64,000 bases of DNA from Acidobacteriota bacterium (GCA_028749115.1 JAQURD010000001.1:214218-278217), one strand, 5' to 3'. Positions 8,950-34,102 are shown, numbered from the stretch's first letter. The notes: generated from the sequence alone by a model not told the origin. Numbers and translations are program-made.

Positions 8950-10164
8950 CTAATCTCCTCTCCAGGCAGTTTTTTGCCGGCGGCCTGGTTCTGGTGCTAT
9001 AAAATTAAAAAAGAGGTTAATCACCAGCAAAATGAGGCCAGCAACCAGATACATGTGTTTCAGCCCAACTATTTCCGACATCCAGCCATAAAATATTGAA
9101 CCAAGCCCCATGCCGGCATCAAATAAGGAATTATAAAGGCTTATAGCCAGGCCTTTATTACCGCGACCCATGAAATCAATCAGGTAGGCACTCAAAGCGG
9201 GGAATATTAATCCCTGGCCGAAGCCGCCCAGGAAGCCGGTAGTGAGCAAAAGCCACTGGCTGTTAATTTGTGAAATCAAAACCAGGTTAAAGCAAATCAA
9301 AAGAGCTGAAATAAAGACCACCTTTTTTCGGCCATATTGATCAGAAACTCCACCAAACCGGAAGCGTGAGATGATAGCGGCAGCAGAAAAAACAATGAAA
9401 AATGGCCCTACCCGGCCGAGTTTAAGAGAGTTTACCAGCAAAGGCATGAAATAAATCATGGCTCCCCTGACCGAGCCATGGGCAACCGGCATCAAGCCAA
9501 TAATAAGTAAAATAAACCAGGTGGCGTATTTCCAGCTTTTTTCGCGTCCGGAGGCTGCCAGCTCCTCATCCAGTTCTTCTCTGGGAAGTTCTTTGGTCAC
9601 CAGAACCAGGATTAAAGACAGAACAAGAAAAATCAGGGCAAAATTAACCAGCCAGGGAAAACCCCAGCGGGTGATGATCTCTTCACCCAGTGAGGGACCA
9701 ACCGCATTAGCAATCAGGCCGGCCACACCGACAATACCAATTGATCGGGCCACACTCTGCACCGGAGCTAAATCTGTGCACATGGCGATATTGGCTGTCA
9801 TGCTGATACCCCAGCCAAGTCCAGTTATGGCGCGTAGAATTACCGGCAAGTAGCCAGCATCTTTTACCAGATGAAAGAAAGGCACAACACTGATCAAGAT
9901 AATCAGCCCAAGAAGTGAAATCTTCTTACCGCCCTGCTTGTCGATCAACCGGCCAAAAAAAGGTCGGATTAAAATGGCAGTAACACTGTGGATACCCATG
10001 ATGAGCCCCACCTGGCTTGTCCGGGGATTAAACTGCTTAAAAAAAAGTGGGAGAATAAAAAAGAGACTGATCGACAGATAGAGAAAAAAATAGGCTGAAA
10101 GGCCCAGGACAAAATCTAAGGTCCAGAAATGATTAGGTTCATTTATCTGGCCTGACCGGACCAT
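8950..10164 (-). CDS. Major facilitator superfamily transporter
   Basis: A 404-residue inner-membrane protein with about twelve hydrophobic segments. The loop between helices 2 and 3 carries the MFS signature GRLIDKQGGKK, and the equivalent loop of the second half carries GVSDQYGRKK. The fold resembles drug or sugar efflux carriers. The substrate is unknown. It precedes the nitroreductase gene in a two-gene operon. The start has GAAGG upstream. Confidence 0.9.
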   Translation of the reverse strand: MVRSGQINEPNHFWTLDFVLGLSAYFFLYLSISLFFILPLFFKQFNPRTSQVGLIMGIHSVTAILIRPFFGRLIDKQGGKKISLLGLIILISVVPFFHLVKDAGYLPVILRAITGLGWGISMTANIAMCTDLAPVQSVARSIGIVGVAGLIANAVGPSLGEEIITRWGFPWLVNFALIFLVLSLILVLVTKELPREELDEELAASGREKSWKYATWFILLIIGLMPVAHGSVRGAMIYFMPLLVNSLKLGRVGPFFIVFSAAAIISRFRFGGVSDQYGRKKVVFISALLICFNLVLISQINSQWLLLTTGFLGGFGQGLIFPALSAYLIDFMGRGNKGLAISLYNSLFDAGMGLGSIFYGWMSEIVGLKHMYLVAGLILLVINLFFNFIAPEPGRRQKTAWRGD

Positions 10165-10264
10165 TAGCCGCCTTCACTAAAATCAAATTAAAGTAATTTA
10201 ATAGCTTAAATTCTCCTGTTTGTAAACAGCCGACAGTCAGTCTTCAGGGGAAAAAGCCTGCGGT

Positions 10265-10294
10265 TTGACAGATAATAACTAAAGTGATAATAAT
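10265..10294 (+). promoter_or_regulatory. Sigma-70 promoter of the YitT gene
   Basis: A perfect TTGACA (10265-10270), then an 18-base spacer and AATAAT (10289-10294). GATAAT three bases earlier is an alternative -10. It lies about 30 bases before the ATG at 10324. Confidence 0.55.
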
Positions 10295-10323
10295 CATAAA
10301 ACTTTATTTCGGCAGGGCAAAAC

Positions 10324-11208
10324 ATGAAAAAACTAATTCTTTCTGACAGGACGGCTATAAAAAGATTGAGCCTGGACTTTTTATTGATCCTCTCGGGCTC
10401 AATAGTAATGGGAATAGGTTATACTTTATTTTTAATTCCATTTCACTTAGTTCCAGGCGGGTTGTCTGGCATTTCCATTATGATCAACTATCTTTTCCCC
10501 CTGCCGGTCGGCCTGGTCATCATTGTTCTGAATGTACCAATTCTTCTTATCAGTTATAGATTTCTCAGCCGCAAATATGTTTTCACCACCCTGGCTGGTA
10601 TGATAACTTCTTCCCTTTTGATTGATTTTTTCAATCAGATTCTTAAATGGCCCCGCGGTACTGATGATATGCTACTGGCTGCTATTTATGGCGGGCTGCT
10701 TCTTGGCATCGGCCTCGGCCTGGTCTTCAGAGGGGAAGCCTCGACCGGAGGCTCAGATGTCATTGGACTGATACTTAACAAATATCTGGGAGTAACAGTC
10801 GGCATTGGCATTATGCTGACTGATTTCATAATTATCTCTACCTCAGGCCTGGTTTTCAAACAGCTCGAAGCCCCGCTTTATGGTTATATTGTTCTTTTTA
10901 TTTCATCCAGGATGATTGATGTGGTACTGGAAGGCTGGAATTTTTCCAAAATGGTAATCATAACTTCCAGTCAGCCGGAAAAAATTTCTGATTTCATTTT
11001 GCACAGTCTCGATCGCAGCGGCAGTGCTTTAAAATCCCGCTCTCTTTATCTTAACCGCGAAGGCGAAATCATAATCACGGTTATTCACCGGAAACAATTG
11101 GCCGAGCTCAAAGCTTTTATAAAAAAGACCGATCCTGAAGCTTTTGTTATTATTAATGATACCCATGAAGTGCTGGGCAAGGGATTTAAAGCCCGTCTGT
11201 CAGGCTAA
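10324..11208 (+). CDS. YitT family membrane protein (DUF161 plus DUF2179)
   Basis: A 294-residue inner-membrane protein. Residues 15-200 hold five to six hydrophobic helices with the FxLIPxxLVPGGLSGISI and GEASTGGSD motifs of the YitT_membrane domain. Residues 205-290 form the soluble DUF2179 domain. Members are poorly characterised, and no transport substrate is established. The gene stands alone between a divergent MFS unit and a convergent secreted-protein gene. Confidence 0.9.
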   Translation: MKKLILSDRTAIKRLSLDFLLILSGSIVMGIGYTLFLIPFHLVPGGLSGISIMINYLFPLPVGLVIIVLNVPILLISYRFLSRKYVFTTLAGMITSSLLIDFFNQILKWPRGTDDMLLAAIYGGLLLGIGLGLVFRGEASTGGSDVIGLILNKYLGVTVGIGIMLTDFIIISTSGLVFKQLEAPLYGYIVLFISSRMIDVVLEGWNFSKMVIITSSQPEKISDFILHSLDRSGSALKSRSLYLNREGEIIITVIHRKQLAELKAFIKKTDPEAFVIINDTHEVLGKGFKARLSG

Positions 11209-23529: not shown

Positions 23530-26283
23530 TCAATATGAGACATAAAAAGTCAGCATAAATGTCCGTGGTGGAGCAAAAGAGGTAGGCATCATATAGGTCG
23601 GCTGATCGCCGCGAACATCAACTCTCAGGGCTGGCTGCATATCAAACAGATTCATCATCCTGGCTTCAATCATTCCCCTGAATTTACCCAGGGGGATTTC
23701 ATAGGCCAGTTGCAGGTCGCAATTAACCCAGGTTTTTGTGGAGTGAGAACCAGCCGGTTCGAGGTAAGCATAATAGTTGCCATAATAATCAAGCCCGCGT
23801 TTTTCCCACGGAGTTCCGCTTTGAATTCTCAGATAGCCACCCAGACTGAAACGGCGAGCAAATTCCCAGGTGCCAAATAACTTTAAAACATGCGTCCTGT
23901 CGCCTAACAATTTTCCACTACGGTTGGGATCGCTCAGATAAAGGCCAGGAGCATCTTCTATGTAGGAAGAGGCATAGAATAAGGCTGTCCCGGCTGCATA
24001 ATCAAGATCCCAGTTGCCGCCCAGCCGGCTGAGTGTATAGGACAGGTTAAATGACCAGCGATCAGCGTACTGTCTTTTCAATTCAAAGGTTATGGCTTTA
24101 TAGGTTCTCCTTGCCTTGCCGGCATAAAAATCAGTAAAACCAGCCTGAGGGATCAACGCCTGAATCTCTGGTGGCAAATTCTCCCAGGACATTAACTGGC
24201 CATCAAGATTGCCATAAACGTAGCTGGATGGATTAGTATCACGATTGCGGGTAGGAAAATCTTCGATAACATGCCCGACATAACGGTAATCGCCCCAGAT
24301 TTCAACACTCCAGTGATCAGGCAGCGGACGGCTGTAACCGGCCACAAATTCATCTGTGTACATCGGTTTGAGATCAGGCAGGATAATCTTGCCAGTTTCA
24401 TTGCCCTGGACAACAGTTTCAATCAGACTACCATCAACCCTGGAAAAATAAGCTTCTGTCCGGTAAATGCGGATGGGCGCGGCCGCCCTGGCAATTGACC
24501 TGTTGTCCATGTTATTGTAGCGGCCATAACTGGCAAAAAGTTTATCTCCAACTTTCAGGCTGGGAGTAAAAGTAAATCCTAAACGGGGCTGGAGTTCCTT
24601 ATCAAAATTGAATTTTAAGAAAGTGCGCTTTTCATCAGTCTTACTGCTAAACTCATCCCGGTTAGCTAGCAAGCCAAGAGTTAGTGTAAAACGTTCCCCG
24701 ATGGTGATGTTATCCTGAAGAAACAGGCCGTAAGTTCGCCCGCGGGAATCCTGAGCCGGCTGCTCTGAATAATAACGGGCTCTGAAGGCATCCTGGCTAT
24801 TACGGGTAGCAGTAACAATACTTCCCCAGCCATTGGTCAACCGTTCCAGATATTCTCCGCCGTCATCATAGCTGAAACCTGCTTTGATCACATGGGAATG
24901 ACCGGTAAAATCCAGATATTTAGTCAGAACCAGCTTAAATTCATTACGGAAAAAGTTCTGGGTATTATATTCTGAAGCCGCACCAACATATTGACCAGTA
25001 GTAGTGGCCCCACCTCCAATATAACCAGTATCCGTTTTAAAATAGCCCATTTTCCAGGGTTCTACATAATTAAAAGGTTCAGGCAAATAGCCCAGTTCAT
25101 TTATGGGCACACTCTTATAATTTTCATTGACATGGTCATATTTGGCTTCCAGTATGGTAGATTGATTAATTGTCCAGACCCAGGAAGCATAGATAATTCT
25201 GGAGAGTCCATCCCCGTTAATGGCCACCGCCGGATGATCATTGACTCCTATGCCAGCATTTTTTTCTGTGTAGTCGTTATTTCTAAAGCTGACTGAAAAC
25301 AAATGTGACCGCCAGGGGTTGGCGGTAATTTTAGCAAATAACTCGGTGGAAGTTGTCTTGGTATCTGGCACCGGCCCAAGATTATTTATCCGGCCACTTG
25401 TTCTGTTATAAGGTAAATTAGCTGAAACATACCACCAGATTTTATCCTTAATGATTGGCCCTCCTATGCCAATTGAAGGTGAATAAGAGTCATACTTGGT
25501 AACTAAATTCGGATCATGGCTATCCCAGGTTAAATCAGCTGGGGCAAAGATAAAGCGCAGAGTTCCAGAAATCCTGTTTGAGCCTGACTTGGTAATGGCA
25601 TTGGTGACCATGCCGGCTGAACGGCCAAACTCAGCACTTATCCCTCCCCTCTTTATGTTAACTTCCTGAATATCCAGCTCTGAAAAATTAGCCCCGAGAT
25701 ATCCATAAAAGGGGTTGGTAATGTTAGATCCATCATAAAGATAGATATTATCCTGTTTGTTACCACCAGCATTGGGAGCAAAATCACGGTTATCAGCGAC
25801 ACCTGGAGCCAGTTGAAAAAGCGAAGCATAGGAACGTCCCAGTGGTAATTTCTGAACTATATCGGACACCCAGTTAGATGAGACTTCAGTTGATTTGAGG
25901 TCAATAACTGGAGTCGCCGCCACAACTGTCACCTCTTCGTGAATCTTACCCAGGGGCTGCATCAGAGCGTTGACAAATGTTTCTTTAGCCATAGCTACGA
26001 TGACCTGGGCAGTAAAATCAATCATTTCGGGGTGAGTAACAACCAGAGTATATTTTCCGGGTGGCAAAGCCTGAAATATAAAACTACCATCTCTACCGGT
26101 TATGTACTCTCTCCCCATGGGTAAGGCCGGGCCAGAAATCACCACAGTGGCATTATCCAGAGCCACACCATCAACACTTTTTGCCAGCCCCCTGATTGAA
26201 CCTCTCTCCTGAGCAAACCCAAAAGAAACGAGCAAAAAAAGGCAGAAAAGAGCATTAAAAAATAATTTAAATTGCTTAGCCAC
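23530..26283 (-). CDS. TonB-dependent outer-membrane receptor with N-terminal carboxypeptidase-regulatory-like domain
   Basis: A 917-residue outer-membrane protein. A signal peptide ends at about FGFAQ (residue 24). Residues 28-115 form a CarboxypepD_reg-like beta-sandwich (GSIRGLAKSVDG, FIFQALPPGKYTLVVTHPEM). A plug domain follows (IQEVNIKRGGISAEFGRSAGMVTNAITKSG by key motifs EFGRSAG and NAITKSG). The rest is a large beta-barrel rich in aromatic alternation, ending in TFYVSY with a terminal aromatic, as in BAM substrates. This architecture imports glycans, peptides or metals; specificity cannot be read. No SusD partner is adjacent. The start is GTG with AAGGAGG upstream. Confidence 0.92.
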   Translation of the reverse strand: MAKQFKLFFNALFCLFLLVSFGFAQERGSIRGLAKSVDGVALDNATVVISGPALPMGREYITGRDGSFIFQALPPGKYTLVVTHPEMIDFTAQVIVAMAKETFVNALMQPLGKIHEEVTVVAATPVIDLKSTEVSSNWVSDIVQKLPLGRSYASLFQLAPGVADNRDFAPNAGGNKQDNIYLYDGSNITNPFYGYLGANFSELDIQEVNIKRGGISAEFGRSAGMVTNAITKSGSNRISGTLRFIFAPADLTWDSHDPNLVTKYDSYSPSIGIGGPIIKDKIWWYVSANLPYNRTSGRINNLGPVPDTKTTSTELFAKITANPWRSHLFSVSFRNNDYTEKNAGIGVNDHPAVAINGDGLSRIIYASWVWTINQSTILEAKYDHVNENYKSVPINELGYLPEPFNYVEPWKMGYFKTDTGYIGGGATTTGQYVGAASEYNTQNFFRNEFKLVLTKYLDFTGHSHVIKAGFSYDDGGEYLERLTNGWGSIVTATRNSQDAFRARYYSEQPAQDSRGRTYGLFLQDNITIGERFTLTLGLLANRDEFSSKTDEKRTFLKFNFDKELQPRLGFTFTPSLKVGDKLFASYGRYNNMDNRSIARAAAPIRIYRTEAYFSRVDGSLIETVVQGNETGKIILPDLKPMYTDEFVAGYSRPLPDHWSVEIWGDYRYVGHVIEDFPTRNRDTNPSSYVYGNLDGQLMSWENLPPEIQALIPQAGFTDFYAGKARRTYKAITFELKRQYADRWSFNLSYTLSRLGGNWDLDYAAGTALFYASSYIEDAPGLYLSDPNRSGKLLGDRTHVLKLFGTWEFARRFSLGGYLRIQSGTPWEKRGLDYYGNYYAYLEPAGSHSTKTWVNCDLQLAYEIPLGKFRGMIEARMMNLFDMQPALRVDVRGDQPTYMMPTSFAPPRTFMLTFYVSY

Positions 26284-26587: not shown

Positions 26588-26625
26588 AAAAGACTCTTCT
26601 TGAGCTGTCTGATTCTCAGAAGAAG
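26588..26625 (-). terminator. Hairpin terminator after tRNA-Leu
   Basis: On the minus strand CTTCTT, an inner TCTGA-GAA-TCAGA hairpin, then AAGAAG and AGTCTTTT. The first arm starts at the base directly after the mature tRNA 3' end. Confidence 0.5.
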
Positions 26626-26711
26626 TGCCGGAGGAGGGAGTCGAACCCACACCCGAAGTGAATCGGACTGGATTTTGAGTCCAGCGCGTCTGCCTGTTCC
26701 GCCACTCCGGC
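26626..26711 (-). tRNA. tRNA-Leu, anticodon CAA
   Basis: An 86-base class II tRNA read on the minus strand. The acceptor arms are GCCGGAG and CTCCGGC with discriminator A. The anticodon stem CTGGA/TCCAG encloses the loop CTCAAAA, giving anticodon CAA. A long variable arm (GTCCGATTCACTTCGGGTGT region) and the T-loop GTTCGACTC follow. The 3' CCA is not encoded (the next bases are CTT), so it must be added by CCA-adding enzyme. Confidence 0.95.
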
Positions 26712-26769: not shown

Positions 26770-29091
26770 CTAGCTTTTCTTCAGAGAACCATTTGAATAC
26801 ACGACAGGTCTGGGCAGATACATAATTGTCAGAGTACTGACTATCTCTCCAGGCTTGAGCTTAACTTTCAGCGGCAGTTCAGTGTGCAGTTTTATTCCCC
26901 TGGGCAGGGTTTCTTCATCAATAAACAGTTCATATGAACCAGGCAGAATGTTCTCAAAAACGAATTGGCCCTTCTCATCGGTATAGCTGGTCAGCTCTTC
27001 ACTTCTTAATTGCTCTATAGCTTCGGCTAATTCTTCTTCCTTGACTGCCCTCAAAATGACAAGGACATCTTTCAGTTGTAGATCCTGTTCATCCAGCAAA
27101 TTATTTTGATTGACATCTTCAAAAATCATCCCGCTGATGGTGGCTCCTTCTAGCAGAAGGTAATTTATCCTCGAGGTTTTTCTCTTTTCTACTACCGCCA
27201 TCTGCCGTTCAGGACTTAACAGGTAATATTGAGCCGGAATATTTCGGACATCAAGGCTGATGGTGTGGAGGCCCTCTGGCACCCGATCAAAAAGAAAATG
27301 ACCTTCCTGATTTGAACTAACACTGCTCCCATCTTCGAGGCGGAAATCAATGCCAGAAAAACTTCTGTCCCCTTCGTCATAAACCCCGTTCAGATTTTCA
27401 TCACAGAAAATTAGACCATCTATTTTTCCAGTTCCGGTCAGCACAGGGCCTGGCGTCCGGCCATGATAAACAGGCATTTCTCCCCAATTGAAACGGCGGT
27501 CTAACTTTAAGGTCAACCAGTAATTAGCAGGCTGGTTTGATTGGAGAGGCCAGCTAGTTCGTAAATCAAGTCTGGCCCTAATTCCCCAGGGTAATATCCT
27601 GCCCAGCCCTAGATAGAGTTCAATACCTTTCCTGGACTGGGTGGTAAAATACCATGATTTTGAGTCCTGGTAGGAAACTTCGGCATAAATATCAGTTCCC
27701 ATAAAAAAAGGCGAATAGTGAGCCAGCCGCAGGCGGTCTAGAGTGGAAGTTCTGTTTTTAAGATAGTCATAATAGCGGCTATCTTCAACCTCAATTAAAA
27801 AATAAGAACTTCTCTGATAATTATATCTTAAGCCAAAATAATACGATGGATAGGTAAAATCACGCTGATTTTCTACCCGGTCGTTGTAATGGTGAAAATT
27901 AACTCTCAAATAGGGATAAAACTCGCCAAATTTCTTAGCTAGCTGTAAATAGAAACCAGGGCTCAAGAAGCTACGGTAATTTTCATCCTGCCGGCGTGAT
28001 TCAGCCGCACTAAAATCAAGTCTGAAAGTCAATTCAGGCCAGGGAGGACTAATTAATGAAAAACCGGAATAAACCCGGTAGAAATCAGTGGTGTTAAGTT
28101 CCGGTAAACGGTTGACATTATTATGGTAATAATCAAAAGAGCCAAAAAGGAAAACAGGCCGCCAGGGCTGGTAACGCCAGGAAGTGAACAGGCCTTCCTG
28201 GTCGCGGTCATAAACAAACTCGCTGTTCAAATCCCTGTACTCAGCATCGACCCGGCGATAATTGATTTCCAGAGACCAGCGATTACGGTTGATAAGCTGG
28301 CCAAATCTAATTGAAGTCCCGGTAATTTTTGCCGGGTCAGTTCCCCCCTCAGTAAAACTGGCTCTGGTATCCATGACCAGCTTACTGCCCTCATTAAACC
28401 GGAGTTCTGATTCTAACATAAGAATATCATTGTTCCGGGTCAGCAATTCTCCGCTCCAGCTTTTTTCATTTTCGCTATGCAGAAAGCCAAAACCAAGATA
28501 ATATTTATCCTCTGTCTCAAAATGGCCAAGGAAGCCGGTAGCCGTCTGGTCAGTTAATGAATAAAAATTTCCCAGCAGCCCGGTAAGCCTGGCCACTTTT
28601 CCACTGATAAAATCCAGGCCAAACTTTTTATGCTGAAAGCCAGCAGTTATCCCCCGGAGGTAATTATAAGCGGGGTAATAATTGGTGAAACGATAGCCCA
28701 GGTTGGTAAACTGAAAGTTATGATCCCCCAGAGTTAAATTAAAAGTCAGTTTTCCGGCCTGGAAACCTTTCCAGTTTAGGTACCAGTGAGCTGCTTCAAA
28801 TTGGCCAGAAGAAAGCCGCCCGTCAAACCAGGCGGTAAAATTTCCATAATTCAGAGTCTTCTGGTAGAGATCCAGGTGCAGTATATTTTCATATTCATTA
28901 AAATAATAAGGCCCGGTTACAGAGTATAGCCGGCTACGGTTCCAGTAAGAAAAGTTCAGATAACCCTGCTGAGCATAAATAACAGATGAGCCAAAAAGCA
29001 ACACCAAGAAAAAAGATAGAAAACACCACTCTTGGACAGAGATTCTTCTGATGCTGTGATTTTCTTTCTGGTTCGACCTGCTATTTTTCAT
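26770..29091 (-). CDS. Predicted outer-membrane beta-barrel with two C-terminal SdrD-B-like domains
   Basis: A 773-residue protein, last gene of the chaperone/pilin-like operon. A signal segment (residues 22-41) ends at VIYAQQ. Residues 42-540 are rich in alternating aromatic and polar residues (LNFSYWNRSRLY, YYLGFGFLHSE, YRVYSGFSL), as in an outer-membrane barrel. Residues about 550-650 and 650-760 are two SdrD-B or CNA-B-like sandwich domains: IDGLIFCDENLNGVYDEGD with FLFDRVPEGLHTI, and ISGMIFEDVNQNNLLDEQD with FVFENILPGSYEL. It has no recognisable usher domain, although the size is usher-like. It could be a translocation pore, an anchor or a tip adhesin. It begins 14 bases after the preceding subunit gene. 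Confidence 0.75.
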   Translation of the reverse strand: MKNSRSNQKENHSIRRISVQEWCFLSFFLVLLFGSSVIYAQQGYLNFSYWNRSRLYSVTGPYYFNEYENILHLDLYQKTLNYGNFTAWFDGRLSSGQFEAAHWYLNWKGFQAGKLTFNLTLGDHNFQFTNLGYRFTNYYPAYNYLRGITAGFQHKKFGLDFISGKVARLTGLLGNFYSLTDQTATGFLGHFETEDKYYLGFGFLHSENEKSWSGELLTRNNDILMLESELRFNEGSKLVMDTRASFTEGGTDPAKITGTSIRFGQLINRNRWSLEINYRRVDAEYRDLNSEFVYDRDQEGLFTSWRYQPWRPVFLFGSFDYYHNNVNRLPELNTTDFYRVYSGFSLISPPWPELTFRLDFSAAESRRQDENYRSFLSPGFYLQLAKKFGEFYPYLRVNFHHYNDRVENQRDFTYPSYYFGLRYNYQRSSYFLIEVEDSRYYDYLKNRTSTLDRLRLAHYSPFFMGTDIYAEVSYQDSKSWYFTTQSRKGIELYLGLGRILPWGIRARLDLRTSWPLQSNQPANYWLTLKLDRRFNWGEMPVYHGRTPGPVLTGTGKIDGLIFCDENLNGVYDEGDRSFSGIDFRLEDGSSVSSNQEGHFLFDRVPEGLHTISLDVRNIPAQYYLLSPERQMAVVEKRKTSRINYLLLEGATISGMIFEDVNQNNLLDEQDLQLKDVLVILRAVKEEELAEAIEQLRSEELTSYTDEKGQFVFENILPGSYELFIDEETLPRGIKLHTELPLKVKLKPGEIVSTLTIMYLPRPVVYSNGSLKKS

Positions 29092-29105
29092 CTCCGTTCT
29101 ACCGT

Positions 29106-29609
29106 CTAAATCCAGGAGACGGTAAAGCTAATCACCTGATTATATTCGCCTGCTGCCTGCTCCCATGAATTTCGAAAATAGAAAAACAATTCCCCTTCTA
29201 TATTCCCCCTGGCCTGACTTATCAGCATAATATTCTGACCTGGAGATAGAACTCCGTCACCAAAGGGTGGGTTGGGTGTGGCTGTCCAGGAAATGCAATT
29301 AATAGGAATCACTTTGCCGCCGTTGCTTACCAGATTACCCTCAGCTCTGACCTGAAGATTCCAGCTTCTCTGCGGTTCAGCCGTGACCATCACCCTGATA
29401 GAAGTGTTAGCTTGAATTACTGGCTGAAGGTCGGGGTCAGCCGAGTTAAAAACAATCGTCGCTGGAGATACACTGAGCGTCAGCCCCCAGGGAGAACCCT
29501 GAATATTTTCTTGAGAATAAAGACTGGTTATAACTAGAACTGAAACAAGGAGGGAAAGAAAAAAAAGTTGTCCTGTCTTCTCCCACTGACACTTAATCAT
29601 TAGCTTCAT
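29106..29609 (-). CDS. Secreted pilin-like subunit D
   Basis: A 167-residue secreted protein with a signal peptide (to about TSLYSQ). The mature part is a predicted all-beta domain with the pattern shared by its two neighbours: LVSNGGKVIPINCISWTA, a GxLSPG turn, GNIEGELFFYFRNSW, and a final GEYNQVISFTV strand. The final alternating strand resembles chaperone-donated strands in pilin-type subunits, but no named family is certain. It starts six bases after subunit C ends; AAGGAAA is the ribosome binding site. Confidence 0.72.
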   Translation of the reverse strand: MKLMIKCQWEKTGQLFFLSLLVSVLVITSLYSQENIQGSPWGLTLSVSPATIVFNSADPDLQPVIQANTSIRVMVTAEPQRSWNLQVRAEGNLVSNGGKVIPINCISWTATPNPPFGDGVLSPGQNIMLISQARGNIEGELFFYFRNSWEQAAGEYNQVISFTVSWI

Positions 29610-29615
29610 TTTCCT

Positions 29616-30161
29616 TTATATACCCTCCACCAGGATAGTTACATTAGCCCGGTAGCTTCCCGGCGCAAAATTGGGACTTTCAGCAAAGGAAAAGTTAAGA
29701 TTGCCGGTAAAAATACCTGCTCCCTTTGTTTTGGCTAAAAGACAGGGCGAAGCCAGATTCAGACTCCCCGGGTAAAAGCCCTGGCCTTCTGCCGCCCAGT
29801 TTATCTTGTTAATGGGGATAGTAATACCACTGGAACTATCCACCAGATCTGATTTGGCCACAAGCCAGACAGTTGTGCCAGAATCACAATTGGTCTTGAT
29901 AGTAAGAGTAAAGCTATCTTCTCTTGCCTGAAGTATCTGAGGTGAAACTGATCGGAAACCAGGCATAAAAGAAACCATTGAGCTGCTGACTTCAATCTTA
30001 AAACGCTTTTCCACCACCACTCTCAGATTAACCGGGTTGGTATTCTGACCGGAGAGATAGGCCGGACCCAGACCCAGAAAGACAGACAGAAATATCAGCC
30101 AGTTGTTTAATTTCCATCTTTTACTGCCTTCTTTCTTGACAAGAGAGGTTACTTTATTCAT
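29616..30161 (-). CDS. Secreted pilin-like subunit C
   Basis: A 181-residue secreted protein with a signal peptide ending near YLSGQ. The mature all-beta domain carries GITIPINKINWAAEG, a GSLNLASPC stretch, GIFTGNLNFSFAES, and a closing GSYRANVTILV strand, matching subunits B and D. It has two Cys (TNCDSG and ASPCLL) that could form a disulfide, as in many chaperone-usher pilins. It starts 15 bases after the chaperone-like gene and ends six bases before subunit D, so it is co-translated with them. Confidence 0.72.
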   Translation of the reverse strand: MNKVTSLVKKEGSKRWKLNNWLIFLSVFLGLGPAYLSGQNTNPVNLRVVVEKRFKIEVSSSMVSFMPGFRSVSPQILQAREDSFTLTIKTNCDSGTTVWLVAKSDLVDSSSGITIPINKINWAAEGQGFYPGSLNLASPCLLAKTKGAGIFTGNLNFSFAESPNFAPGSYRANVTILVEGI

Positions 30162-30176
30162 TTTTTTTCCGTCAGA

Positions 30177-30986
30177 TTATCTCACTGTAATTTCTTTTAT
30201 CAGCCCGAGGAGTTCATCCCGGCCAATATCCAGTCTGGCTTCAGCCTCATAACGGCCAGGCGGCAAATTTTCTTTTAGCCGCAAGGACAGCCAGCGCTGG
30301 CTGTCTGGCAGAACAGGCTCATCGGGAATATCAACTCTGGCCAGTTCCTTTCCTTCTTCTGTTCTGATTTGAATCTGACCTTTTAGCCTGAAATGTGTTC
30401 TCCCCGAATTTATCAGCTTGAGTTTGATCAATTGCCCGCTGCCTGAAGACTCAAAAACCAGATCTTCCAGAGTGCCCTCTGGCTGGACCTTACCTACTGA
30501 GATATAGATAGCCACCACAATTTTTCCTGAAAGGGCTACCTGGTTTATTCCACTCACTGGAGATTCAGGAATTTGTTCAAAAGAAATAGCGGCGTGATAA
30601 CCACCGGGTTCTGTCCCTGACGGGACAGTCACTGTAAAGCGAACAGTTTTTAAGTCTTCTGGTTGAAGCCTGAAATCAAAAGGATTGACTTTGATCCAGT
30701 CCCGGCAGGAAAAGGAGACAGGCTGATTGCCGACAAAATTTCTTGTCCCATCTTCGGCCAGATACCAATTCTCAGCATAAACCTTAAGCCGTATTGGTTT
30801 GGGAGAATTATTTCTAACTTGAATAATCTCAGTTGTCTGACCACCTGGTTTAACTTTGAGGTCAAACCTTATAGTCGTAACACCAAAAGAAATCTGAGAG
30901 TTAAGACCTGTCGGCAATAAAACCAGCACTACCAAAATAGCTATAGTCTCAGGGAAAAATCTACTTTTAGAGCCAGGTTTAACCAT
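30177..30986 (-). CDS. PapD-like periplasmic pilus chaperone
   Basis: A 269-residue protein with a signal peptide (to about TGLNSQ), then an N-terminal Ig-like domain of fimbrial-chaperone type. After the signal it reads ISFGVTTIRFDLKVKPGG with VRNNSPKPIRLKVYAENW, then a DFRLQPEDLKTVRFTV strand, comparable to the G1 donor-strand region, and a second Ig-like domain (VFESSGSGQLIKLKLINSG). Chaperones of this class fold and cap pilus subunits in the periplasm. I chose ATG 30986, which has AAGGGG seven bases upstream and gives a normal signal peptide; a TTG start at 31028 would add 14 residues. The subunit genes on both sides support the role. Confidence 0.75.
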   Translation of the reverse strand: MVKPGSKSRFFPETIAILVVLVLLPTGLNSQISFGVTTIRFDLKVKPGGQTTEIIQVRNNSPKPIRLKVYAENWYLAEDGTRNFVGNQPVSFSCRDWIKVNPFDFRLQPEDLKTVRFTVTVPSGTEPGGYHAAISFEQIPESPVSGINQVALSGKIVVAIYISVGKVQPEGTLEDLVFESSGSGQLIKLKLINSGRTHFRLKGQIQIRTEEGKELARVDIPDEPVLPDSQRWLSLRLKENLPPGRYEAEARLDIGRDELLGLIKEITVR

Positions 30987-31066
30987 CGTCTTCCCCTTTA
31001 TCCATTTGCCCATCAATTTTTTGCCCAATATCCAGAAAGAGGCCTACCAATTAATTATGAAATTGC

Positions 31067-31091
31067 GGGGAGAGATAAATTCTCTCTCCCC
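31067..31091 (-). promoter_or_regulatory. Stable intercistronic hairpin after subunit B
   Basis: A perfect nine-pair GC-rich stem: GGGGAGAGA (31067-31075) and TCTCTCCCC (31083-31091) with a seven-base loop. It lies between the stop of subunit B (31116) and the chaperone start (30986). On the transcribed strand no U-run follows, so it fits an mRNA-stabilising or processing element better than a terminator. Confidence 0.6.
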
Positions 31092-31115
31092 CAGCTTTTA
31101 CCTAATAGATAGGGT

Positions 31116-31637
31116 TCAAACTTCAGAAAGAGTATAAGTAGCAGTCAGAGAATAGTTACCCGGTTTTTGGGTAGCATAGTTACGGAGAAACTTAAAGTTG
31201 AGCGTTCCTACATGATAATGCAAAATGGCACTTGACCAGGAACCGACGGTCACGGCCGTGCTTTTTGACAGGCTACCCGACACATAGCCACTACCAGAAG
31301 CTACTTCCCAGCTTACAGTGCTAGCCGGAACAGTATCACCAAAATCATCAGAAACAGTTACCGTTAGCTTTAAAGGCTCCAAAAGTGTGATGGCGGCAGC
31401 AGTCACTGTCACCGGATTTTCGTTAGCACTAATCGACAAAGTACCTGGATTAGACATATCAGCCGGGGGAACATCAGTAAAAGTTATGGCGGTCTTGTCA
31501 ATGGTGAGACTATAAAGACCAGCTAGATTCACTGAAAAAGTTACATCCTGAGTGGCCTGGGCTAACGCTAGATTAGCACTACCCAATAATAAAATCGCTC
31601 CGATAATACTTAAAAAAACAATTGCCTTTTTATTCAC
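31116..31637 (-). CDS. Secreted pilin-like subunit B, candidate major subunit
   Basis: A 173-residue secreted protein. The signal peptide ends at ANLALAQ. The mature part is Thr-, Ser- and Val-rich and all-beta: TVPASTVSWEVASGSG, a SGSLS turn, GTLNFKFLRNY, and a final PGNYSLTATYTL strand, the same layout as subunits C and D. It lacks Cys. The start is GTG with AAGGAGG eight bases upstream. It has its own strong promoter and a following stable hairpin, which suggests high expression as the main structural subunit. Polymer formation is inference. Confidence 0.72.
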   Translation of the reverse strand: MNKKAIVFLSIIGAILLLGSANLALAQATQDVTFSVNLAGLYSLTIDKTAITFTDVPPADMSNPGTLSISANENPVTVTAAAITLLEPLKLTVTVSDDFGDTVPASTVSWEVASGSGYVSGSLSKSTAVTVGSWSSAILHYHVGTLNFKFLRNYATQKPGNYSLTATYTLSEV

Positions 31638-31670
31638 CTGGCAATCCTCCTTGGATGGAATTTTTAATTA

Positions 31671-31699
31671 ATTTTACCTTAGGAGGAAACCAGTGTCAA
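31671..31699 (-). promoter_or_regulatory. Sigma-70 promoter of subunit B
   Basis: On the minus strand a perfect TTGACA (31694-31699), a 17-base spacer and TAAAAT (31671-31676). Predicted start near 31664, giving a 27-base leader that contains the AAGGAGG site of the GTG start at 31637. Confidence 0.7.
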
Positions 31700-31850
31700 G
31701 AGGACATAAGAAATTTTCTTTAGCCTAAGTATCAGGCCGCAAATATTATTTATTCTGATTTTTATCTTTTTGAGCCCTAAATCCTCCTCTCTTCACTCGT
31801 CCTAATCTTAAAATAATATACTTTTTAACCTCCTTAACACTCTGAAAATC

Positions 31851-32363
31851 TCAAATAGCACTGATTGAGAAGACCGCTCTGTATTTAGTCTCGCCCGATT
31901 GGCCACTATCCCAAAAAATTAACGTTCCATTTTTTAAACCCTGTCCTTTCCAGATAGCAAAAGTCACCTCTTCCTGAAGAGAAACCGCACCGGCTCCGCT
32001 CAGATCTGCTCCCCCTACCCAGTAAAGAACAGTCTCATTTTGTCTGGCATGGCTTTCCGGGTAGATGCTTCCTTTTAAAGACACGGTCTTTTCATTACCG
32101 GCTGATAACAAAGCCTTGATATAAACAGGCTGGCCAACGATAATACAGGTTGAGACTGCCGCCTCACTATTTCCATAATCAGATAAGTTTTCCGCTCCTG
32201 AATTAATTTCTAGAACCAGCCATTCTTTGATTTCAACCGAGAATCTGGCGATAGTGGAAGAACCTGCTTGAAGATAGGCTGGAAGGCCTGCAATCAGCAA
32301 GACAACCGCCACTGCCATTATTATCGTTTTTCCAGCCTGCCTTTTTATCTTTTTGTACTCCAT
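31851..32363 (-). CDS. Secreted pilin-like subunit A, first gene of the operon
   Basis: A 170-residue protein with a long charged N-region, a hydrophobic core (residues 14-27) and a likely cut near YLQAG. The mature part is a predicted beta-sandwich (FSVEIKEWLVLEINSG, LYWVGGADLSG, NGTLIFWDSG, closing YRAVFSISAI strand). It is more diverged from subunits B, C and D but keeps the Trp followed by a GTLxF strand. AGGAG precedes the ATG. It is directly behind the sigma-54 promoter and about 210 bases before subunit B. It could be an initiator, tip or regulatory subunit. Confidence 0.65.
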   Translation of the reverse strand: MEYKKIKRQAGKTIIMAVAVVLLIAGLPAYLQAGSSTIARFSVEIKEWLVLEINSGAENLSDYGNSEAAVSTCIIVGQPVYIKALLSAGNEKTVSLKGSIYPESHARQNETVLYWVGGADLSGAGAVSLQEEVTFAIWKGQGLKNGTLIFWDSGQSGETKYRAVFSISAI

Positions 32364-32390: not shown

Positions 32391-32406
32391 AGCAACTTAC
32401 GTGCCA
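32391..32406 (-). promoter_or_regulatory. Sigma-54 (RpoN) promoter of the pilin-like operon
   Basis: The minus strand reads TGGCACG, TAAG, TTGCT, an exact match to the -24/-12 consensus TGGCACG-N4-TTGCW. Predicted transcription start near 32380, 17 bases before the ATG of subunit A at 32363, with an AGGAG site between. The gene for a sigma-54 activator lies directly upstream. The gap 32407-32734 contains dyads but no gene. Confidence 0.88.
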
Positions 32407-32734: not shown

Positions 32735-34102
32735 TTAAACGGAGATGCCATACTTACTGAGCTTCCGGTAAAGAGCTTGCCTGGTAATGCCGAGCAAGCT
32801 GGCTGCCTTTTGTTTGTTAAAATTAGCCGCTTTAAGTACTTCCAGCAAATGCTTTTTTTCTATCTCAGCCAGTGTTAGATGACCATAGGGATAAGGCTCG
32901 TCTTCCCCTTCTGACTGTTCAATCTTATTAACTTTATTGAGCAACTCCTCTGGCAAATGCTGGACATCTATAAAATTCTCGGTTGTCAATGTCACCGCCC
33001 GTTCTATAACCTTTTCCAGTTCGCGGATGTTCCCAGGCCAATCATATTCAAATAAAATCTTCTTTACCCGGTTAGAAATACCCCTGACCGCCTTGCCATA
33101 ACGCCCATTATAACGGTCTATAAAATAATAACAAAGAAGAGAAATATCTTCCTTTCTTTTTCTTAAGGCTGGTATATTTATCTCAGCCACATTTATCCGG
33201 TGAAACAGGTCTTCTCTGAAACGCCCCGCCCTCACCTCTTCCCTCAGGTTCCGGTTAGTGCTACAGATCACCCGGGTGTTAACCTTGACTGACCGGTTGC
33301 TGCCCAGAGGCCTGAAAGTCCCTTCTGATAAAAATCTCAGCAGTTTGGCCTGGCTGGTCATCGGCATCTCACTTATTTCATCAAAAAAAATCGTGCCGCC
33401 ATCAGCTTCTTTCAACAGTCCGGCTTTCTGGCGATCAGCGCCAGTAAAAGCACCACGTTCATAGCCAAATACTTCTGACTCAAACAGACTTTCAGGCAGC
33501 GAAGTGCAATCGACCACTACCCACGGCCTTTGACTTCGGACGCTGAGATGATGAATGGCCCTGGCGGCTAATTCTTTTCCTGTTCCTGTCTCGCCGGTGA
33601 TTAAGACTGTAATCTGATGTTTAGCCAATCTTTCTATCATAGAAAATATTTCTAACATAGCCGGATGGCGGCCAACCATTCCTTCAAACAGGTATTTACC
33701 AGTCAGCTCTCGTTCAAGATGGTAGGTTTCCTGGCGGATAGAAATTTTCTCTCCAAGTTTCCTCAAGCTTTCGACCAGAGCTTCAACTTTCAACGGCTGC
33801 TCCAGATAATCAAGCGCACCAGCTCTGATCACCTCCGCTATTCTGGTTTCTCTTTCTGGCAGCCCCAGGATTATGACCTCCAGAAGCTGATCATACTCCT
33901 TGATTTTTCGCAATCTCTCAAAGGCTTCATTCAGCCGCTGACCTCTTTCCAGAATAACCACCCGGGGCCTGATATCTTTAATTCTGGAGATACAATCTTC
34001 TTCCGGACTGACCCAGAATATCTCGTATTCATCCGCAGCCAAAAACTGCCGGATATTCTTTACTGTTTCTGCCTCTAAGGAAATTACCAGGATCTTAATC
34101 AT
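32735..34102 (-). CDS. Sigma-54-dependent transcriptional activator with degenerate receiver domain
   Basis: A 455-residue NtrC-type protein. Residues 1-115 have receiver-domain fold pattern, but the acidic pair after the first strand is missing (ILVISLEAE) and the phospho-acceptor Asp is replaced by Glu (VVILERGQ). Residues 133-365 are the AAA+ domain: Walker A GETGTGKE, the sigma-54 contact loop GAFTGA, Walker B IFFDEISEM. The C-terminus is a Fis-type helix-turn-helix (KQKAASLLGITRQALYRKL). No kinase gene is adjacent. It is transcribed toward the sigma-54 promoter of the pilin-like operon, its most likely target. AAAGG precedes the ATG. Confidence 0.9.
   Translation of the reverse strand: MIKILVISLEAETVKNIRQFLAADEYEIFWVSPEEDCISRIKDIRPRVVILERGQRLNEAFERLRKIKEYDQLLEVIILGLPERETRIAEVIRAGALDYLEQPLKVEALVESLRKLGEKISIRQETYHLERELTGKYLFEGMVGRHPAMLEIFSMIERLAKHQITVLITGETGTGKELAARAIHHLSVRSQRPWVVVDCTSLPESLFESEVFGYERGAFTGADRQKAGLLKEADGGTIFFDEISEMPMTSQAKLLRFLSEGTFRPLGSNRSVKVNTRVICSTNRNLREEVRAGRFREDLFHRINVAEINIPALRKRKEDISLLCYYFIDRYNGRYGKAVRGISNRVKKILFEYDWPGNIRELEKVIERAVTLTTENFIDVQHLPEELLNKVNKIEQSEGEDEPYPYGHLTLAEIEKKHLLEVLKAANFNKQKAASLLGITRQALYRKLSKYGISV

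Follow-up and report, generated by a model that had tools for sequence, protein, structure and literature searches.

A divergent chaperone-usher-like operon with a stripped-down barrel platform, predicted in an uncultured Acidobacteriota bacterium

The closest described counterparts of the locus reported here are the chaperone-usher pathways (FimC/FimD and PapD/PapC, the archaic Csu system, and the alternative CFA/I and Ecp systems) and the Gram-positive WxL/WxLIP (DUF916-DUF3324) clusters. In the ushers FimD and PapC an N-terminal domain is responsible for recruitment and a plug gates the channel (PMC8410936); in the WxL clusters, by prediction, the sandwich of WxL is completed by a strand of WxLIP (PMC10599100). 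Here we describe a six-gene operon at positions 26770-32363 of a 64,000-nucleotide (nt) window, the whole stretch of DNA analysed, from an uncultured Acidobacteriota bacterium of the Candidatus Saccharicenans lineage. With a probability of roughly 0.7 the operon encodes a divergent chaperone-usher-like fibre pathway with a stripped-down platform. The original prediction, of a distinct fibre-export or chaperone-assisted surface system, is supported by the analysis: none of the three outcomes that would have overturned it, a standard usher domain in the barrel, subunits of unrelated folds or a scattered gene set, was seen. That a fibre is formed is something we infer.

Like the chaperone-usher pathways, the operon encodes a chaperone together with several pilin-like subunits bearing a donor-strand-like N-terminus, a large predicted outer-membrane barrel that ends in two sandwich domains, and one subunit without the extension, the predicted tip; a stem-loop also follows the gene of the candidate major pilin. 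Unlike them, its barrel has neither the usher N-terminal domain nor the plug and is predicted to have about 26 strands against 24 in ushers (a count that is model-dependent), no product matches PF00577 or PF00345, and the subunits fall in no known pilin sequence family.

All six open reading frames (ORFs) were found on reading the window, on the minus strand and in one direction, in the 5' to 3' order A, B, chaperone, C, D, barrel, with gaps of 213, 87, 15, 6 and 14 nt respectively; the short-gapped, co-directional arrangement first proposed is therefore confirmed. Each of the six products has an N-terminal hydrophobic, signal-like segment. Since the same gene order recurs, with orthologues at about 40-70% identity, in genomes of Ca. 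Saccharicenans and its relatives, the ORFs are, on grounds of conservation, genes rather than chance ORFs, and the gene set is conserved together as a whole. The genes are:

31851-32363, minus strand: subunit A, secreted, candidate minor pilin with a donor-strand-like N-terminus (ORF; orthologues at 42-48% identity; aligned with B-D though divergent)
31116-31637, minus strand: subunit B, pilin-like, candidate major subunit, GTG start (AlphaFold2 (AF2) fold; PDB matches; downstream stem-loop)
30177-31028, minus strand: putative two-domain periplasmic chaperone, WxLIP/PapD-like (WxLIP_PGBD; listed start TTG, exact start uncertain)
29616-30161, minus strand: subunit C, pilin-like, with a donor-strand-like N-terminus (paralogous to B and D)
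29106-29609, minus strand: subunit D, pilin-like, without N-terminal extension, predicted fibre tip (alignment of D orthologues and of the L065 and L094 relatives)
26770-29091, minus strand: outer-membrane barrel, predicted usher-like platform (AF2 model; PDB fold search; SdrD_B/SpaA at the C-terminus)

Pfam matches in the six proteins were to WxLIP_PGBD in the chaperone, to SdrD_B/SpaA at the barrel C-terminus and, below threshold, to an Ig-like domain in B; A, C and D had no Pfam match, and an NCBIfam scan of all six proteins gave nothing of weight.

Alignment shows B, C and D to be mutual paralogues and A to be a more divergent member. In the AF2 model of B (predicted local distance difference test, pLDDT, 88; predicted template-modelling score, pTM, 0.72) residues about 25-40 are loose and precede a sandwich at 41-172, with the C-terminal strand at its end. 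The first eight PDB matches of this model were to CfaB, PapG, a chaperone-usher rod subunit, PapE and FimH pilin chains, the best matches also include PapA, FimF, FimG, CsuA/B and Caf1 chains, and roughly 30 of the best 50 are chaperone-usher pilins. The PDB holds a great number of sandwich structures, which makes such an enrichment informative; with chaperone-usher pilins as its best matches, B does not point to subunits of unrelated folds. An alternating hydrophobic stretch lies ahead of the core in A, B and C (VTFSVNL in B). The assignment of the subunits as pilin folds with an N-terminal donor strand is a prediction, based on the AF2 model and fold search for B and on alignment for A, C and D. 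In D and its orthologues, and in the L065 and L094 relatives, the core strand begins soon after the signal peptide. The tip subunit of chaperone-usher pili lacks an N-terminal extension and, because D lacks one too, D is predicted by analogy to be the fibre tip. The D-type subunits contain a W-x-L sequence (SWNLQV in the window at 29106-29609, RWQLTV in L063 at 9219-10462) and their C-terminal strand is reminiscent of WxL domains; the Pfam WxL model did not match them. TasA, a donor-strand fibre protein, and archaeal fibres were also among the PDB matches of B. The TasA/TapA fibres of Bacillus resemble the predicted system in their donor-strand assembly, but Bacillus has no outer membrane or usher, and TapA is the specific chaperone there (PMC10151520).

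The barrel protein comprises a signal (residues 1-41), the barrel itself (43-536) and two C-terminal domains at about 554-648 and about 650-760, both modelled as sandwiches (AF2 model: pLDDT 83, pTM 0.59). No usher domain had been visible at first, and this stands for PF00577, which Pfam and NCBIfam scans did not find in the barrel, and for the N-terminal domain and plug; it does not stand for the tandem SdrD-B-like pair, which sits at the positions of the usher C-terminal domains CTD1 and CTD2. The ten best PDB fold matches were all FimD or PapC (1e-16 to 1e-11), the first non-usher barrel being MtrB (9e-8, rank 16). An MtrB-type electron conduit was considered and rejected, as the six protein sequences contain no CxxCH haem motif. 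By profile, the C-terminal domains match the C-terminal part of ushers at 85% and plug-bearing relatives at 97.5%. These relatives, the plug-bearing usher-like systems of Acidobacteriota (L070 and L071, the loci of G031 and G001, and L072), share with the operon a homologous chaperone, upstream subunit genes and C-terminal domains with the motif GxYxLxID...LP; unlike the operon's barrel, theirs have both N-terminal domain and plug, and their alignment with the PF00577-class ushers of the phylum runs over the full length, plug included (98% probability). The motif occurred in 8 of 217 control ORFs, 6 of them orthologues of the window barrel. A second candidate signature, GD...RG at strands 5-6, was dropped since it occurs in 6-50% of shuffled sequences. 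Some related barrels carry additional domains: SPOR at the C-terminus in L066 (7255-10413) and L069 (7872-10778), Cu_amine_oxidN1 at the N-terminus in L066 and L068 (5289-7838), and T2SS-T3SS_pil_N at the N-terminus in L069. Such domains may stand in for the N-terminal domain of ushers or attach to peptidoglycan.

Several observations weigh against a chaperone-usher-like pathway. Besides the number of strands, the first strand of the barrel model starts at residue 43, right after the signal peptide, with no usher N-terminal domain, and no domain is inserted between strands that could be a plug. Profile comparison of barrel to barrel with ushers gives no signal. The usher fold matches have low TM-scores, about 0.35, and the barrel-only PapC structure (2vqi) scores 2e-6, no better than BtuB at 2.6e-6; because barrel-only PapC scores like unrelated barrels, much of the usher signal in the model may rest on the layout of a barrel plus two sandwich domains. 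Furthermore, SdrD_B-like domains are common. For the subunits, the fold E-values of B are modest (best 2e-3, TM about 0.3-0.45), and profile searches found no PDB or Pfam relative and no match to a pilin family.

The strand count, the missing N-terminal domain and plug, the undetectable barrel-level profile similarity and the presence of MtrB, another large barrel, among the fold matches would also be expected if the barrel had been recruited independently of ushers and had taken over their role in the export of donor-strand fibres. This account differs from the favoured one in the origin of the barrel alone, which may or may not descend from an usher barrel. However, the two C-terminal domains are at the usher position, their similarity is continuous with the plug-bearing relatives, the gene neighbourhood is the same and ushers are clearly at the top of the fold search; we therefore regard independent recruitment as possible but somewhat doubtful.

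The chaperone was originally called PapD-like. Alignment of its G1 strand with CsuC is consistent with this; in sequence, however, it lies nearer to WxLIP than to PapD and has no PF00345 match. It scores 29.3 bits against WxLIP_PGBD (PF06030; cut-off 27.3; 9.9e-7), and the best PDB match of a profile of 11 chaperone sequences, at 2.5e-8 and across both domains, is the solved EfmWxLIP1 (9i25/9i1y); the match of the same profile to CsuC is weak (E 1.2). WxLIP_PGBD gave eight matches in a survey of 297 Acidobacteriota genomes, every one of them at the operon's locus type. Judged by sequence, the closest characterised relative is the Gram-positive WxLIP (DUF916). WxLIP_PGBD was also matched in a diderm control genome, that of Thermotoga maritima.

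Links to the chaperones of ushers are nevertheless present. The window chaperone matches those of G031, G001 and G017 at 4.5e-16 to 9.5e-16 and, weakly, those of G098 and G052, which are encoded next to true ushers, and the L072 homologue does match PapD_N. In the alignment of the G1 strand the alternating donor pattern of CsuC, V110, F112, M114 and Y116 (PMC4654587), is kept as V164, L166, G168 and I170. R54 is invariant in eleven relatives, and we propose that R54 and K169 are equivalent to the classical Arg/Lys anchor pair, Arg20/Lys139 in Caf1M (PMC4654587). In contrast to the archaic system, the position of the CsuC anchor Arg89 is occupied by His145, although L065, L066, L072 and L076 have arginine there. 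The proposed completion of WxL by a WxLIP strand is the same principle as that of PapD-type chaperones. A divergent chaperone in L063 (7754-9211, minus strand) has about 230 extra C-terminal residues, AMIN-like by appearance.

This relationship raises the alternative that the operon is a diderm counterpart of the WxL/WxLIP complex, in which the chaperone-like protein would be a permanent partner, both completing and displaying the subunits, the barrel an export or anchoring pore, and no long fibre would form. The WxLIP_PGBD score, the EfmWxLIP1 match, the location of all eight survey matches and the predicted insertion of a WxLIP strand into WxL (PMC10599100) all speak for it. The operon also shares with the WxL clusters that genes for small sandwich proteins accompany that of a WxLIP-like protein with two domains. 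Yet the WxL domain (PF13731) was found in none of the 297 genomes, the chaperone ends in ...GRDELLGLIKEITVR with no hydrophobic or transmembrane helix, and the host is a diderm with an outer-membrane barrel in the operon; the system also fails the definition of a WxL system. Moreover, the subunits have free N-terminal strands fit for polymerisation and match pilins best, and homologous chaperones are found in plug-bearing usher-like relatives. Such a non-fibrous complex is thus unlikely.

In the survey the chaperone was matched in 26 genomes and the barrel in 32, many of the barrel matches outside the order covering just the common SdrD-B-like part. The window barrel alone gave no match against genome contigs; an alignment of closer relatives did. 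Both genes were matched in 14 genomes, from several families, and in every one of these 14 the two share a contig and a strand, the chaperone being upstream. Most genomes of the genus have the barrel, mostly at about 60-68% identity, and the subunit orthologues are in identical order wherever contig and ORF calling permit; the gene set occurs in divergent form elsewhere in Acidobacteriota. From this conservation the operon is a conserved and presumably functional unit. That its barrel is an ordinary transporter or porin next to secreted beta-sandwich proteins by chance, as the matches of BtuB and OccK/Opd porins to the model might suggest, is very improbable given the adjacency in 14 of 14 genomes, the gap of just 14 nt to D and an operon free of transport genes.

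PF00577 ushers are present in 9 of the 297 genomes, and none was found in the bacterium's own genome or among the relatives sampled from its order; PF00345 (PapD_N) had no match in its own genome either. A true archaic locus, with a spore coat U pilin, a PapD_N chaperone and a PF00577 usher, was seen in another Acidobacteriota genome (L076, 7574-11756). As it fails on PF00577, N-terminal domain, plug and 24 strands, the system is not placed within the usher family but beside it, as a variant that probably functions likewise.

For the favoured chaperone-usher-like pathway the following sequence of events is proposed. Subunits A-D would enter the periplasm by Sec, where the chaperone would hold each of them by filling the gap in its incomplete sandwich with the G1 strand QVALSGKIVVAIY (residues 163-175). 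Basic chaperone residues close to the domain cleft, for which R54, K169 and H145 are candidates, would anchor the subunit C-terminus. The barrel would act as the outer-membrane assembly platform. Because it has no N-terminal domain, chaperone-subunit complexes would have to dock on its two C-terminal domains and, because it has no plug, gating would have to work otherwise. The N-terminal strand of the next subunit would then replace the chaperone strand and the fibre would leave through the barrel, with D, which has no donor strand, exiting first to form the tip and B likely providing the main subunit. The neighbouring activator would control transcription, which would start at a sigma-54 promoter. 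The regulatory features are:

32391-32406, minus strand: sigma-54 (-24/-12) promoter TGGCACGTAAGTTGCT (consensus match 27 nt before the ATG of A)
32735-34102, minus strand: sigma-54 activator, probable regulator of the operon (Pfam Sigma54_activat at 1.6e-66, HTH_8, Response_reg)
31699-31671, minus strand: sigma-70-like promoter before B (11 of 12)
31066-31092, minus strand: GC-rich stem-loop GGGGAGAGAG...CTCTCCCC between B and the chaperone gene (folding of loci)

The promoter is the sole match to the -24/-12 consensus in the 64 kb, where 0.08 would be expected. Similar sites precede A by 56-63 nt in L057, L058, L060 and L061; L061 has a further sigma-54-like site before B, and the divergent L063 has one ahead of its first subunit gene. 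The activator, which has a response-regulator receiver, an AAA+ domain and a Fis-type helix-turn-helix, adjoins the operon here and in relatives, including L063 (55% identity). A stable hairpin is found 3' of B in 6/6 Saccharicenans-type loci folded; folding of L062 showed none at the B-chaperone position. Enterobacterial fimbrial operons are well known to have a stem-loop behind the gene of the major pilin, and since one follows B, B is by analogy likely to be the major subunit.

Outside the operon, a tRNA-Leu (CAA) gene (26625-26711, minus strand) follows the barrel gene at a distance of 58 bp. A gene at 23530-26283 on the minus strand, likewise not part of the operon, encodes a TonB-receptor-like barrel that has a carboxypeptidase-regulatory-like domain at its N-terminus.

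No paper joining DUF916 with chaperone-usher systems was found, and no study of Saccharicenans or Aminicenantes pili by title or abstract, in a literature search that lacked most subscription papers and is thus weak evidence of novelty. It is a tentative proposal that the locus represents a separate class of donor-strand fibre export, with a large unplugged barrel, no recruiting domain and no usher descent, and with a chaperone sharing ancestry with Gram-positive WxLIP; if true, the WxL and chaperone-usher systems would be branches of one strand-lending chaperone family. The PF00577 and PF00345 models miss the locus entirely, and therefore such systems are probably under-counted in Acidobacteriota. 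From a natural platform without N-terminal domain or plug one would learn which parts can be dispensed with and what keeps a large channel closed. Further, the chaperone sits between the WxLIP and PapD types, and therefore the origin of chaperone-usher systems would become testable.

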